A stretch of 64,000 nt of DNA, from the NCBI RefSeq assembly GCF_004116465.1, contig NZ_PDJV01000004.1, positions 124,001-188,000 of the forward strand. The letters are read 5' to 3'. The DNA is from Arcobacter sp. F2176. GTDB lineage: Bacteria > Campylobacterota > Campylobacteria > Campylobacterales > Arcobacteraceae. Below the pieces are notes generated by a model. The model did not search any database and had not been told where the DNA came from. It saw nothing but the letters and a program-made list of their open reading frames with translations. The position numbers and the translations under genes are program-made. This document shows, piece by piece, positions 56,236 through 61,885 of the stretch (the first letter of the stretch is position 1; each line of letters opens with the position of its first letter).

Positions 56236-56808
56236 CTATTTTACTATTTCTTCTAATGTTTCTTTTATTTTAGCAGGGTCTGAAAAATGGTCAACTTTTG
56301 CTCTAAACTTACCATCTTTATCAAAGATATAGATAAAAGAAGTATGTGAAACTGAATAACCCATTGCTGAATCTTTTAAATTTATTTTTTTATAGTATGT
56401 TTTATATCTAGATGTAATATCATCAATATTTTTTTTTGTTGAAGTTGCACCTATAAAATTTGGATGAAAATAATGTGCATACTCTTTTAGATTTTTAAGG
56501 GTATCTCTGTCTGGGTCTACACTTATAAATAATCCCACAAAGTCTTTAGCTTTTTCTTTTGGTAGTCTGTTTATTGCTTGTGCTAGCGAACTTAATGAAG
56601 TAGGGCAAACATCAGGACAAAATGTATATCCAAAATAAATAGCTAGATACTTACCTTTGAAGCTATCTTTTGTAATTTCTCCATCAATTGTATTTACTTT
56701 GAAAGCATATTGTTTATGCTCTTTATAATCTCGTACATAAGGTCTAGCTATTATAATTATCACAATTGCAATTGTTATTGCAATGAAAATTTTAAAAATC
56801 TTACTCAT
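56236..56808 (-). CDS. SCO1/SenC-type copper-binding thioredoxin-fold protein
   Basis: A 190-residue protein with an N-terminal membrane anchor (about residues 5-21) and a periplasmic thioredoxin-like domain. The copper ligands are visible: Cys64 and Cys68 in FCPDVCPTS and His155 in YSVSHTSF. SCO proteins help assemble the CuA or CuB centre of cytochrome oxidases. The gene is last of the Fur-nhaA-PCuAC-FixH-like-SCO run; the stop codon of the preceding gene shares a base with its start (TAATG). Confidence 0.93.
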   Translation of the reverse strand: MSKIFKIFIAITIAIVIIIIARPYVRDYKEHKQYAFKVNTIDGEITKDSFKGKYLAIYFGYTFCPDVCPTSLSSLAQAINRLPKEKAKDFVGLFISVDPDRDTLKNLKEYAHYFHPNFIGATSTKKNIDDITSRYKTYYKKINLKDSAMGYSVSHTSFIYIFDKDGKFRAKVDHFSDPAKIKETLEEIVK

Positions 56809-57299
56809 TATTTACCTGTTTTAAATTGGAATCTAGCTCCAATAGTTTTATTTATTTTTTCTACTCTTATATCTGCATTCCATATCATATTACCAACTGG
56901 ACATGTAGGAAGAGTACCTATTGCTTCATAGTTTCCATTTCCTAGATTTTTAATTGGTAAATTAAAATCACCCATGAACATATTTGTTGCATATATATTT
57001 AAATGTAAATCTTTTAACTCTTTATTGTTACTTTTGATTTCAAATTTAAGGGCTTGCATAAGTGGAATTGATTTTGGATTTATGCTTAATTCAAAAGTTG
57101 TACCATCTTGTATTTTTACAATACAAGAACTTTGGTGTAAGTCACAACTTGAATCTTGTGTTATAAATTGCGCTTCACCTTTAAAAGATTGATAAAGTGA
57201 AGAAAAATCTATAAGAAAATATCCTACAACAATAAAAAGTACAACTACTACTTGTAGTATTGCACTTTTTAAATTGTTAGGTTTTTTTTCTTGTGGCAT
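56808..57299 (-). CDS. FixH/YtkA-like membrane-anchored protein
   Basis: A 163-residue protein with one membrane helix (about residues 12-31) and a small periplasmic domain. It has two Cys in CDLHQSSC, a MNMFMGDFN methionine-rich segment and LPTCPVGNMIWNADIRV, which resembles the copper-linked FixH/YtkA domain (MxMG...LPMCxxG...W). The family assignment is by pattern. It lies between a copper chaperone and a SCO protein with tight spacing, so a role in copper delivery to a terminal oxidase is likely. Confidence 0.65.
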   Translation of the reverse strand: MPQEKKPNNLKSAILQVVVVLFIVVGYFLIDFSSLYQSFKGEAQFITQDSSCDLHQSSCIVKIQDGTTFELSINPKSIPLMQALKFEIKSNNKELKDLHLNIYATNMFMGDFNLPIKNLGNGNYEAIGTLPTCPVGNMIWNADIRVEKINKTIGARFQFKTGK

Positions 57300-57302
57300 T
57301 AT

Positions 57303-57794
57303 TTAATTACTTCCACATTTACCTGTACCACAACTCATACCTTTTTTCACACTCTTCATCTCTTTTTTCATCATTCCACCCATTACACTTTTTACAGGAA
57401 TAGTTATAGTTTTATTCTCTCCATTTGAGAAATTAAGAGTAATAGTTACATTCTCTTTTTCTTTTAATGGCTTATGAAGGCCTATTAACATAACATGAAA
57501 TCCACCTGGTTTAAGAGATGTTTCTTTATTTGCAGGAATATCTATTTTTGGAACTTGGTACATCTTCATTACACCATCTTTCATGCTATGTGTGTGAAGT
57601 TCAACTACTTTTGAAATATCAGATGTAGCTTTTATAAGAGCTATATCTTTATTTGTTTTATTCTCTATAGTCATAAATGCAGCCGAATTTGGAAGTCCAG
57701 GAGGTGTTGCTCTAACATATGCATCTTTAACTTCAATATTTGAAGCAAATAGAGTTGATGCACTTAGTAGTGCTAAAAGAAGAAAATTTTTCAT
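57303..57794 (-). CDS. PCuAC-type periplasmic copper chaperone
   Basis: A 163-residue secreted protein (signal MKNFLLLALLSASTLFAS) with the PCuA(C) fold and copper ligands in the pattern H(M)...M...HxM: VELHTHSMKDGVMKM and GGFHVMLIGL. The tail is Met-, Lys- and Cys-rich (GGMMKKEM...GMSCGTGKCGSN), a possible extra copper site. The ATG at 57794 has AAAGG six bases before it; an upstream ATG at 57818 adds a charged start with no function. It delivers copper to oxidase subunits in other bacteria. Located between nhaA and the FixH-like gene. Confidence 0.9.
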   Translation of the reverse strand: MKNFLLLALLSASTLFASNIEVKDAYVRATPPGLPNSAAFMTIENKTNKDIALIKATSDISKVVELHTHSMKDGVMKMYQVPKIDIPANKETSLKPGGFHVMLIGLHKPLKEKENVTITLNFSNGENKTITIPVKSVMGGMMKKEMKSVKKGMSCGTGKCGSN

Positions 57795-57836
57795 TTTGTA
57801 CCTTTTTTTGATTTCCAAAATTTTATAATTTAAGTG

Positions 57837-59126
57837 TTAATTATGTGTTAAATCTTTTTTTAATAATATTAACAACACTCCAATTATAGCTGCAATAAAT
57901 GAAGCTACAAATATCCCTAATTTTACAGCAGAAATTATGCTTTCATCAAGAAAAGCAAGGTGTGTTATGAAAATAGACATTGTAAATCCAATTCCCCCTA
58001 AAAATCCAACTGCGATAATTTCATACCATGAAATATTATCTGGTTTTTTAACTAGTTTTAGTTTGGTTGCTAGATATGTAAATCCAAATATTCCTATTGG
58101 TTTTCCAATAATTAAACCAAAGACAACACCTAATACAATCATTAAGTTTGCGCTTATTCCTGAGAAGTCTATTAGTACTCCAGCATTTGAAAATGCGAAT
58201 AAAGGCATAATAAAATATGCAGATAATCCATGTAAACTATGTTCTAATCTCATAAGAGGATTTTGTACCTTATCATAGTTATCAGCAATATTTTCCAAAG
58301 CATCAATTTGATGATGGTTTAAAATAGATGTAGGTTCGATATTGTTTTCAAAAGTAGCTATGTCTTTTTTTGTATCTTCAACAAATGCATTTTCACCAAT
58401 TTTTGATCTTATAGGAATAGCCAAAGCTAATAAAACACCTGCAACAGTTGCATGAATCCCAATTGCATGAATATATATCCATAAACCAATACCAAGAATT
58501 AAGTAAGGTAATAATTTAGTTACACCTTTTATATTTAATGCCCAAATTAAAGCGTAAATTACGCCTGCATGTAAAAAATACTGAGTATGAATTTCACTTG
58601 TGTAAACAGTAGCGACAACTAAAACAGCACCTAAGTCATCTACAACAGCAAGGGCAACTAAAAATAATTTTAAAGCTGGATTTACTTTTTTTCCTAAAAG
58701 CATCAAAATACCTAATGCAAATGCAATATCTGTGGCCATTGGAATACCAAATCCTAGTGGATTATCAGTATTTAATGCTACATATATCAATGCTGGAATA
58801 ATCATCCCCCCAAGAGCTGCAATAATAGGAAATAAAGCCTTGCTTACAGATGAAAGTTCCCCAACACTCATCTCTCTTTTTATCTCTAATCCTACCATTA
58901 GAAAAAATAATGCCATAAGTCCATCATCAATCCAATAAGTCAAGGTCATAGAAATACTATGTTCACCAAGATTTATTCCTAATGGCATATGCCATAGATC
59001 ATAATATGCTTGTCCTAAACTAGAATTTGCAGTTATTACTGCTGCTACAGTTGCTAAAAAAAGAAGTATTCCACTAAGTGCTTCTTTATTTATAAATTTG
59101 TCTAAGGTGACAAGTTTTTTTATCAT
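57837..59126 (-). CDS. nhaA: Na+/H+ antiporter NhaA
   Basis: A 429-residue, about 12-helix antiporter. The family signatures are FFLMVGLEIKREMSVGELSS, ATDIAFALGILMLLGKKVNPALK with the ion-binding Asp, and LVALAVVDDLGAVLVVA with the paired Asp, followed by the late GFLGGIGFTMSIFITHLAF. Sodium or lithium extrusion and pH control in the inner membrane is the known role. The ATG at 59126 has AAGGAA five bases before it and does not overlap the Fur-family gene, so it is preferred to the upstream ATG at 59156. It follows the Fur-family gene by 11 bases, in the same operon. Confidence 0.93.
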   Translation of the reverse strand: MIKKLVTLDKFINKEALSGILLFLATVAAVITANSSLGQAYYDLWHMPLGINLGEHSISMTLTYWIDDGLMALFFLMVGLEIKREMSVGELSSVSKALFPIIAALGGMIIPALIYVALNTDNPLGFGIPMATDIAFALGILMLLGKKVNPALKLFLVALAVVDDLGAVLVVATVYTSEIHTQYFLHAGVIYALIWALNIKGVTKLLPYLILGIGLWIYIHAIGIHATVAGVLLALAIPIRSKIGENAFVEDTKKDIATFENNIEPTSILNHHQIDALENIADNYDKVQNPLMRLEHSLHGLSAYFIMPLFAFSNAGVLIDFSGISANLMIVLGVVFGLIIGKPIGIFGFTYLATKLKLVKKPDNISWYEIIAVGFLGGIGFTMSIFITHLAFLDESIISAVKLGIFVASFIAAIIGVLLILLKKDLTHN

Positions 59127-59137
59127 AATATTCCTTT

Positions 59138-59503
59138 TTACAAACAATTTGGACATATTCCTTTAATAATTATATTCTCGATTTTGTGATTTTTTAAATT
59201 AAATCTAAAGTCCTCATGAAGGCATTCGATTTTAGAACAATTAGTACATATAAAGTGTGCATGTTTACTTTTTTTTATTTCAAAATATCTTTTTTTATCA
59301 TTTGATTCAAAAGAATCAATAATATCTTCTTCTTCAAATCTAGTGATATTTCTGTAAAAAGTAGCCTTATCCATATTGATTGAAAATTTTATTTCTTCAT
59401 AACATAAAGGTTTAGAAGAGTTTGATAGTACTTCTAGTATCTCTTTTCGTGAGCTTGTTAGTTTAATATTTCTATCTTGAAATAATTTGTTTATATTGTC
59501 CAT
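59138..59503 (-). CDS. Fur-family metal-dependent repressor
   Basis: A 121-residue regulator with a Fur winged helix (QDRNIKLTSSRKEILEVLSNSSKPLCYEEIKFSINMDKATFYRNITRFEEEDII) and the metal part with HAHFICTNCSKIEC and a C-terminal CPNC; Cys86/Cys89 and Cys117/Cys120 give a structural zinc site. Which metal it senses (zinc, iron, manganese) is not clear; the neighbouring ZnuA-like gene favours zinc. Two near-identical 18-bp dyads lie between the two divergent genes. It leads the nhaA-PCuAC-FixH-like-SCO run. Confidence 0.88.
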   Translation of the reverse strand: MDNINKLFQDRNIKLTSSRKEILEVLSNSSKPLCYEEIKFSINMDKATFYRNITRFEEEDIIDSFESNDKKRYFEIKKSKHAHFICTNCSKIECLHEDFRFNLKNHKIENIIIKGICPNCL

Positions 59504-59525: not shown

Positions 59526-59543
59526 TTGCAACTAAGTTGCGTT
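59526..59543 (+). promoter_or_regulatory. Dyad site 1, candidate Fur-family operator
   Basis: TTGCAACTAAGTTGCGTT contains the perfect dyad GCAACT-A-AGTTGC. It lies 23 bases before the start codon of the Fur-family gene. It matches site 2 read on the other strand at 16 of 18 bases. Confidence 0.65.
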
Positions 59544-59570: not shown

Positions 59571-59588
59571 AATGCAACTTGGTTGCAA
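59571..59588 (-). promoter_or_regulatory. Dyad site 2, candidate Fur-family operator
   Basis: AATGCAACTTGGTTGCAA contains arms TGCAAC and GTTGCA around TTG. It lies 18 bases before the znuA-like start codon, with its centre 46 bases from that of site 1. Same consensus as site 1 in reverse orientation. Two copies in one divergent gap point to control of both genes by the Fur-family protein. Confidence 0.65.
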
Positions 59589-59606: not shown

Positions 59607-60488
59607 ATGAAAAAAATCTTTTATATATTTTTAATAATATGCTCATCACTTTATGCACAAAAAACTGTTACTGTAAGTATTTTACCTCAGAAGTATTTTG
59701 TAGAAAAAATAGCAAAAGACAAAGTAAAAGTAAATGTTATGGTTCAACCTGGTTTTTCACCTGCTACATATGAACCTAAAACTTCTCAAATGAAAGAATT
59801 AATAAATTCTGATATTTATTTCTCTATTGGTGTTCCTTTTGAAGAATCTTGGTTGAGTAAATTTACAGATATTAATAAAAACATGTTACTTATAGATACC
59901 TCAAAAGGTATTAAAAAAAATAAAATGCTTGGACATCACCACCATGATGAAGTTAAACATGAAGAACAAGAACATCATGAAGAACATCATCATGATGAAG
60001 AGTCTTTAGATCCACATATTTGGTTAGATCCAATATTAGTGAAAACACAAGCAAAAAATATTTTAGACGCTCTAATAAAAGTAGATACAAAAAATAGAAA
60101 ATTTTATTATGATAATTATAAAATTTTTTTAACAGAACTTGATAATTTAAATATGAACTTATCTAATATTTTAAAACAGATAAAAGGCAAAAAGTTTATG
60201 GTTTTTCATCCTTCTTGGGGATATTTTGCTAAAAGATATGACTTAGAACAAGAAGCAGTTGAAAAAGAAGGAAAAGAACCTAAACCAAAAGAGATGATAG
60301 CTCTTATAGAAGAAGCAAAAGATGAAGGTATAAAAGTATTATTTGTAGCTCCTCAGTTCTCAAAAGTAGCAGCAACTACAATTGCTGAAAATATTGGTGG
60401 AAGTGTTATTGAAATAGATCCTTTATCTTACAAATGGGAAAAAAGTTTACTTGACATCTCAAATAAATTGGTGAATACATATAAATAA
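59607..60488 (+). CDS. ZnuA-like metal-binding protein with His-rich loop
   Basis: A 293-residue periplasmic protein of the cluster A-I (TroA/ZnuA) fold with a signal sequence (about residues 1-17). The His-rich loop is long (residues 110-130: HHHHDEVKHEEQEHHEEHHH). Metal ligands: His137 in DPHIWLDP and His in FHPSWGYFAKR are present, but the first site reads SPATYEPKTSQ, with Ala where ZnuA usually has His, a variant seen in a sub-branch of the family. No ABC permease or ATPase follows; instead the stop shares a base with the start of an RcnA-like transporter gene (TAATG). AGGAG precedes the start. Zinc is the likely metal, nickel or cobalt possible. Confidence 0.88.
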   Translation: MKKIFYIFLIICSSLYAQKTVTVSILPQKYFVEKIAKDKVKVNVMVQPGFSPATYEPKTSQMKELINSDIYFSIGVPFEESWLSKFTDINKNMLLIDTSKGIKKNKMLGHHHHDEVKHEEQEHHEEHHHDEESLDPHIWLDPILVKTQAKNILDALIKVDTKNRKFYYDNYKIFLTELDNLNMNLSNILKQIKGKKFMVFHPSWGYFAKRYDLEQEAVEKEGKEPKPKEMIALIEEAKDEGIKVLFVAPQFSKVAATTIAENIGGSVIEIDPLSYKWEKSLLDISNKLVNTYK

Positions 60489-61885
60489 TGAAATTAATAT
60501 TTATTCTTCTTCTAATAGCTCAAACAGTTTTTGGTTGTGCTTTATGTGCAGTATATTCTCCAAAAACTAGAGTTGTGCTTGATGTAAAGACAAATGATAG
60601 TTTAATAAAAGAAATTGATGTAAAATGGATAGTTACAAAAGCTTTTACAAAGACTTTAAATAATGTATACGATACGAATTTAAATGAGAAATTAGATAAA
60701 GATGAGTTAGAAAATGTAAAGATAGCTTTTCGTAATTATGTTGAACCAAGAGATTTTTTAGTAAATATATCTTATGGAAAAAAAATAAATAAACTAAGAT
60801 CAAATAGAATAAGAGTAAATGATTTAAAAGTTGATATTGAAAATGGTCTTTTGCATATTCGGTATAAAATATTATTAGATTACAAATTAGTAAAAGATGA
60901 TATTTTATATTTTAATACAGATGATAAAGAAGGTTATTTTATTGTTACTATTGCAGAAAATGCTGTTAAGTATGATCCTACTGTATTTAAAAAAGAGACA
61001 ATCGATGCAAATAGTGTAAGTTTTCATATTATTAAAGATATAGAAGAGCAAAAAAAAGAAGAAATTACTCCTGTTAAAAAAGTTGAAGTAAAAGAAGAGT
61101 TAAAAAAAACGCCTAAAGTTCAAGATGAGAACTACTTAACAAAGTTTTCAAAGCAAATAAAACAAAATCTTTTAAAAATAGAAAAAGGTGATAATTTTGC
61201 TTTATTTACACTTTTATTTATATCATTTATTTATGGAATTATTCATGCTATGGGACCAGGTCATGGTAAATCATTGGCATTTTCATATTTTATGAGTAAC
61301 AAAAGTTCTTATACAAGAGCTTTAATTATCTCTCAATTAACTGCATTTATTCATATACTTGGAGCTTTGATTCTTGTTTTGATATCAGTATTTTTAATAA
61401 CTACTTTTTTAAATAGTTTTGTAGATGATTCTATTAAAATTATTACAAAATTATCTGCTATATTTATTATGCTATTGGCAGTATTTATTTTGTATAAAAA
61501 AGTAAGAAAGAAAGAATCTTATTGTAATGTTTGTTGTTCTTCACACGCACATGATCACAATCACGAACATAATCATAATGAACATAAAAAAATAAAAAAA
61601 CAAGATTTATTTTTTGTTTTAACAGCAGGAATTATTCCTTGTCCTGGTACTGTTATATTATTTTTATATGCTTTTGTATTGAAAACTTACTTTGCAGTTA
61701 TTTTAGCATCTATTGCTATTAGTTTTGGGATGGGATTAGTTATTTTTGCTTCTTCATTTTTGAGCTTAAATTTAAACAAAGTGTCAAGTAAAGTAGAAAA
61801 ATTTAGAAATTTTGTGGAAATAATCTCACCAATATTTATTTTCTTATTAGGGTTGTTATTATTTTTCAATGTAAATGTAATATAA
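60488..61885 (+). CDS. DUF1007 - RcnA/NreB-like metal transporter fusion
   Basis: A 465-residue protein: signal sequence (about residues 1-17), a periplasmic DUF1007-like part (to about residue 200, with TNDSLIKEIDVKWIVTKAFT), a charged linker, then about six membrane helices of a RcnA/NreB/HoxN-type transporter. Metal motifs are HAMGPGHGKSLAFSYF, a cytoplasmic His loop (HAHDHNHEHNHNEH) preceded by CNVCCSSH, and IIPCPGTVILFLY. RcnA relatives export nickel and cobalt, HoxN relatives import nickel. It is coupled by TAATG to the ZnuA-like gene, and no ATPase gene is present. Direction and metal are unknown. Confidence 0.85.
   Translation: MKLIFILLLIAQTVFGCALCAVYSPKTRVVLDVKTNDSLIKEIDVKWIVTKAFTKTLNNVYDTNLNEKLDKDELENVKIAFRNYVEPRDFLVNISYGKKINKLRSNRIRVNDLKVDIENGLLHIRYKILLDYKLVKDDILYFNTDDKEGYFIVTIAENAVKYDPTVFKKETIDANSVSFHIIKDIEEQKKEEITPVKKVEVKEELKKTPKVQDENYLTKFSKQIKQNLLKIEKGDNFALFTLLFISFIYGIIHAMGPGHGKSLAFSYFMSNKSSYTRALIISQLTAFIHILGALILVLISVFLITTFLNSFVDDSIKIITKLSAIFIMLLAVFILYKKVRKKESYCNVCCSSHAHDHNHEHNHNEHKKIKKQDLFFVLTAGIIPCPGTVILFLYAFVLKTYFAVILASIAISFGMGLVIFASSFLSLNLNKVSSKVEKFRNFVEIISPIFIFLLGLLLFFNVNVI

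Follow-up and report, generated by a model that had tools for sequence, protein, structure and literature searches.

Which transporter does a metal-binding protein of the ZnuA family serve when its gene has no ABC transporter genes beside it? In the window, the 64,000-nucleotide stretch of DNA analysed here, such a gene (encoding the protein referred to below as SBP) overlaps the start of a gene for a DUF1007-NicO fusion protein, with the stop codon of the first and the start codon of the second sharing the TAATG at 60486-60490. Both genes are intact and coupled as the initial annotation of this DNA had described (Table 1), and its statement that no ABC permease or ATPase gene adjoins the ZnuA-like gene agrees with the ORFs at the locus, where none was found beside the pair. 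The next gene past the pair is a convergent chemoreceptor-like ORF. We propose that the locus is probably one half, SBP plus accessory transporter, of a Zur-type system for zinc uptake under starvation, from which the ABC part has been relocated. This reading follows from an ABC gene pair lacking its own SBP gene on contig C6, from paired operator boxes accompanied by a Fur-family gene, and from detached ABC genes that carry a box of their own in relatives.

Table 1 Features of the SBP and DUF1007-NicO locus (positions in the window)
Feature	Position	Strand	Basis
Fur-family regulator, candidate Zur, 121 aa	59138..59503	-	PF01475 60 bits; CxxC...CxxC; divergent from SBP
Operator 1, TGCAACTAAGTTGCG, 7-1-7 palindrome	59527..59541		same position kept in relatives
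Operator 2, TGCAACTTGGTTGCA	59573..59587		46 bp after operator 1, 19 bp before SBP start; kept in relatives
ZnuA-family metal-binding protein (SBP), 293 aa, signal peptide	59607..60488	+	PF01297 224 bits; nearest structure 1pq4
Ala53 codon, in place of first ZnuA His ligand	59763..59765	+	comparison with 1pq4 and orthologues
SBP His/Glu-rich flexible loop	59937..59999	+	sequence; pLDDT <50 at residues 113-129
DUF1007-NicO fusion protein, 465 aa	60488..61885	+	domain profiles, alignment, model; start overlaps SBP stop
DUF1007-like domain, presumably extracytoplasmic; CxLC at predicted mature N-terminus, EF-hand-like loop D62-E73	60539..61042	+	DUF1007 in 14/16 members
NicO membrane domain: HAxGPGHGK, CxxC loop, IPCPGT motifs	61193..61885	+	NicO 60.7 bits

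The binding protein and the DUF1007-NicO fusion

The SBP matches nearly the whole PF01297 profile above its cut-off, and the closest solved structure is Synechocystis ZnuA (1pq4), with 43% identity over 255 residues. The predicted model (mean pLDDT 89) superposes on 1pq4 over 255 residues at 1.6 Å (Z 33.7). Comparison with this structure and with orthologues confirmed the earlier observation that Ala replaces the usual first His ligand: Ala53 occupies the position where 1pq4 has PHTYEP and where most SBP orthologues keep the His. The other two ligands, H137 and H201, are retained and are invariant in 40 orthologues, leaving the three-His set of ZnuA and cluster A-I proteins incomplete. Long His-rich segments had been noted in both proteins; that of the SBP is conserved in kind, but the NicO loop is common only to the nearest aligned relative.

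A tree of 60 SBPs places the His-to-Ala change as a single event within those Arcobacteraceae in which the SBP and NicO genes are split from the ABC genes, that is, as a derived change within one lineage. Among 104 genomes of the family, 95 of which have the SBP, Ala or Thr stands at the first ligand in 42 SBPs, and an intact fused NicO gene adjoins every one of them (42/42), whereas NicO is lost or broken in 8 of 29 genomes of the His-bearing split relatives of genus g2. The corresponding Fisher p of 0.0006 is descriptive only, because the 42 SBPs share one origin and are phylogenetically non-independent. These facts leave some limited room for a switch of partner to NicO. In Ala-bearing Arcobacteraceae, the SBP would then be a periplasmic metal chaperone loading (or taking from) DUF1007-NicO, decoupled from the ABC or no longer mainly feeding it, and the pair a binding-protein-dependent metal transporter without an ATPase. 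We consider this unlikely; the association counts towards it, but the Ala substitution arose only once on the tree, and shrinkage of the genome within a single genus may explain the NicO losses.

The NicO domain of the fusion protein scores above its cut-off of 27.7 bits. DUF1007 scores 16.3 bits in the window's member (cut-off 27), and is matched by 14 of 16 relatives at E ≤0.01 (best E 1.1e-10). The predicted model has a beta-rich domain ahead of the membrane helices (mean pLDDT 79.5). Across 44 sequences, C17, C20, D62 and E73 of the DUF1007-like part and H253, H259, H289 and C385 of the NicO domain are invariant, and C346 and C349 are conserved in at least 90%. Those NicO relatives whose function is known act on nickel and cobalt, and the best-known of them, RcnA, are nickel/cobalt exporters. 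The fusion protein matches the RcnA-type efflux model NF007454 at 52.3 bits, well short of the 195-bit cut-off. Since a Foldseek search of the model against the PDB returned no significant match, the direction of transport cannot be read from structure. On contig C16 of the same genome (G000), NicO and DUF1007 are encoded by two distinct genes (L014:2817-4332) without a box, so the genome has both fused and unfused forms.

Operators and the candidate Zur regulon

The gap between the Fur-family and SBP genes holds two TGCAACT-N-AGTTGCA-like 7-1-7 palindromes that are kept in relatives. Paired boxes of this type, 45-50 bp apart and with at most one mismatch, are confined to three sites in the genome: in this gap, before a complete znuABC operon, and between divergent pyrC and hisI-ribA genes. 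Both of the latter are second copies, as PyrC is encoded twice (68% identical) and PRA-CH, the product of the hisI that is fused here to ribA, is also encoded twice. We rejected chance as the source of the boxes, given 47 matches at up to two mismatches compared with 11 for a reversed control pattern and the restriction of paired sites to the three places. The 7-1-7 palindrome is a documented form of the Zur box (PMC6103462), and PyrC and HisI paralogues belong to Zur regulons elsewhere (PMC2770081, PMC6103462). A palindromic box thus marks both zinc-uptake genes and zinc-sparing paralogues in this genome, as expected of a Zur regulon.

The Fur-family protein has CTNC and CPNC as its structural CxxC pairs, and an orthologue is encoded divergently from the SBP in most relatives. 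It scores 20.6 bits against the Zur model (cut-off 167), and higher against PerR/Fur models, also below their cut-offs. The profile comparison is a point against our reading, and the protein is called a candidate Zur because of its regulon, not its profile score. The regulator is very likely Zur, and the metal very likely zinc. A locus for nickel or cobalt acquisition under a Nur- or Fur-like regulator would accord with the name of the NicO family, and the profile scores do not settle the regulator; yet the same operator precedes the second znuABC and the pyrC and hisI-ribA paralogues, which are zinc-starvation genes elsewhere, and the nearest solved structure of the SBP is that of a zinc protein. 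We regard a nickel/cobalt system as highly improbable, and the co-regulated genes led us to reject it as the main reading.

The main rival for the role of NicO is an outward guard, in which the zinc-starved SBP-ABC system would also admit nickel and cobalt and the co-expressed RcnA-like NicO would pump them out. The export role of RcnA, the weak match to NF007454 (52 bits) and the operons closely shared with the importer in several layouts speak for such a guard, but the match is far below the cut-off, an N-terminal extracytoplasmic domain resembling metal-binding domains fits uptake equally well, and Zur-repressed genes mostly have uptake or sparing functions (PMC6103462). We rate the guard as doubtful. 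The initial annotation had left uptake or export open; of the two, uptake is the more likely because the regulon is Zur-like, and the evidence puts the chance that the fusion helps uptake, not export, at about even.

Three further observations concern other genes. A box-like sequence, TGCGACTAAGTCGCA (two mismatches, full palindrome), lies between two tandem outer-membrane porin-like genes on contig C8 (L095:4700), a candidate for a zinc porin. A dksA-like gene after hisI-ribA on contig C12 (L094:6130-6500) is broken in this assembly by a frame shift near a run of A, which may reflect either a pseudogene or a fault of the assembly. Within the window, the Fur-family gene is followed on the minus strand (56236-59156) by genes for NhaA, a PCuAC-like copper chaperone, an unknown protein and an SCO-like protein. 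Because the order of this stretch is partly kept in near relatives, its copper-handling genes may share a Zur-type promoter.

The probable ABC partner and gene orders in relatives

The genome encodes three ZnuA-family proteins, namely the SBP, the ZnuA of the full znuABC operon found at C4:3.8-6.3 kb on this contig, and a paralogue beside aspS on contig C11 (L003:1435-2235). The last has none of the three His ligands and no ABC neighbours, and appears to be a degenerate or repurposed binding protein. Two ZnuB-type permeases score above 200 bits, one belonging to the complete znuABC and the other encoded on contig C6, where its gene follows that of its ATPase (ZnuC-ZnuB) with no SBP gene alongside. 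In Paracoccus, zinc SBPs that have diverged do not use one another's permeases (PMC7731109). The SBP here is 28% identical to the ZnuA of the complete operon, close to the 25% at which sharing failed there. For this reason, the C6 permease has no other plausible binding protein in the genome, and the SBP likely works with the C6 ZnuC-ZnuB. The cognate-type permease and ATPase are orthologous to the neighbours of the SBP in relatives. C6-type ZnuB and ZnuC are 46-47% identical to C. coli proteins encoded beside trxA/trxB-like genes, which from gene order we take to correspond to C. jejuni Cj0143c-Cj0141c. The latter is a high-affinity zinc system of C. jejuni (PMC4178425).

An orthologue-level match to the SBP was found in 100 of 150 genomes of the order and a C6-type permease in 97 of these 100, with orthologues called from score bands and not from trees for every gene. 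In 74 of the SBP-bearing genomes no more than 5 kb separates the two genes, and the distance is mostly 0.6-0.9 kb, enough for the ATPase gene between them. By comparison, a fused NicO is beside or near the SBP in only 17 genomes. The steady partner of the SBP is therefore the ABC, whereas the presence of NicO varies. Where the SBP-NicO pair lacks an adjacent ABC, a C6-type permease is encoded elsewhere in all ten genomes of this survey. Another 28 genomes were reached via named loci, almost every one of them carrying such a pair; 27 have the permease, and the exception is a small metagenome bin.

A scan of genome contigs based on the NicO alignment yielded 80 named loci, whereas the same scan with a single NicO protein as query gave no matches. 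An SBP gene lies near the NicO fusion at 64 of the 80, far beyond chance. The linkage of the two genes in Campylobacterota, the absence of which would have counted against the initial annotation, is thus conserved. Four arrangements were seen. In the first, a Fur-family gene is divergent from SBP-NicO and the ABC is elsewhere (Arcobacteraceae, C. coli). The second and third are SBP-ZnuC-ZnuB-NicO (Sulfurimonas and others) and SBP-NicO-ZnuC-ZnuB (C. concisus), both of which also have a divergent Fur-family gene and a box. The fourth, found in three Sulfuricurvum-type genomes (L180, L182, L183), is an operon of a Fur-family gene and NicO divergent from a complete znuABC of the other type, with a box between. 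From these arrangements, the NicO fusion has been kept with, or rejoined to, zinc-uptake genes. DUF1007-NicO is an accessory protein in several gene orders across Campylobacterota, and the common operon and operator back the earlier suggestion that this transporter goes with the metal system.

Other arrangements were also noted. In Sulfurospirillum (L133, L134, L138, L140, L144), genes for NicO, a DUF1007-NicO fusion and DUF1007 stand in a row with no SBP or Fur-family gene adjoining. Some Arcobacteraceae encode a longer SBP relative (~430-470 aa) directly beside ZnuC-ZnuB, with boxes upstream (L124:8947-10323, L129:5348-6715).

The gene orders also bear on a possible ABC-independent role of the SBP with NicO. 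Split lineages keep the SBP and NicO genes together with the ABC elsewhere, the split or joined state changed about four times on the SBP tree, and the two genes overlap. In C. coli the ABC genes have an SBP gene of their own alongside, and another SBP gene is paired with NicO at a separate site. This suggests that SBP-NicO pairs can occur away from the ABC, and fits less well with our reading. On the other side, almost every split genome examined retains the C6-type ABC, which in the window's genome has no other SBP of its type, and several relatives keep the SBP without NicO. The proposal of a distinct module of binding protein and secondary transporter without an ABC ATPase is not the best reading. 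The simpler alternative offered with it, ZnuBC partners encoded elsewhere, is borne out by the znuC-znuB genes on C6 as far as sequence can tell.

The preferred reading, a Zur-type uptake system with a relocated ABC, gains from five split-layout relatives: there, a box lies 10-34 bp upstream of the detached znuC itself, which places both halves in one regulon. Against it, no box precedes the C6 znuC-znuB in the window's genus, where weak boxes (up to four mismatches) upstream of znuC were not found either; the SBP is without one of its three zinc His ligands, and known NicO relatives handle nickel and cobalt.

A probable variant layout of a known zinc system

The protein families, the modelled fold of the SBP, the operator, the co-occurrence and the alternative gene orders are established from sequence. 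Based on these, we propose that under low zinc the candidate Zur would leave the two boxes, allowing expression of the SBP and DUF1007-NicO. The SBP would collect periplasmic zinc and deliver it in trans to the C6 ZnuC-ZnuB importer. DUF1007-NicO, translationally coupled to the SBP, would most likely act as an auxiliary metal permease, its extracytoplasmic domain (with the CxLC and EF-hand-like loop) binding zinc and its NicO domain (with the HAxGPGHGK histidines and the IPCPGT cysteine) providing an auxiliary metal path, more likely inward.

This system resembles ZnuABC, as represented by Synechocystis ZnuA, in the family and fold of the SBP, in two of the three His ligands and in the His-rich loop. 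It differs in the Ala at the first ligand and in the NicO fusion in the operon, and, whereas orthologous SBP genes are usually beside znuC and znuB, the ABC genes of this genome are detached. The Campylobacter ZnuABC of the Cj0143c-Cj0141c type is related to the C6 ABC, but forms one contiguous operon, and in C. coli that locus has neither NicO nor a box. As in the Zur regulons of gamma- and betaproteobacteria (znuABC, pyrC2, hisI2, ribA), a 7-1-7 box precedes znu genes and second copies of pyrC and hisI-ribA; in contrast to those regulons, the box is TGCAACT-N-AGTTGCA, the NicO fusion is an added target, and the metal ligands of the PyrC paralogue seem, by eye, to be retained. AztABCD of Paracoccus denitrificans likewise combines an ABC importer for zinc with a periplasmic helper for metal handling that is encoded alongside, although AztD is a soluble chaperone and the helper domain here is fused to a NicO membrane transporter. 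RcnA/NicO proteins with a DUF1007 partner, such as the C16 pair, have the same domains; here, however, these form one chain, under a zinc-type operator and beside a zinc SBP, unlike the C16 pair with its lack of a box.

Literature searches on DUF1007 or NicO with znuA or Zur found no description of the SBP-NicO arrangement, and absence from the searched literature is not proof of novelty. The layout is an unusual, apparently undescribed variant of a known zinc-scavenging system and not a new kind of transporter: it is probably ZnuABC under Zur, in a different gene order and with an added, apparently undescribed component. In Campylobacterota, Zur-type gene sets for zinc uptake repeatedly include the DUF1007-NicO fusion, and the analysis provides a box sequence and a candidate Zur regulon for a group to which Campylobacter coli and C. 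concisus belong. It further cautions against taking the lack of ABC genes next to an SBP gene as a sign of independence from an ABC transporter, and the Ala substitution tied to NicO retention offers a case in which a change of partner by a binding protein can be tested.
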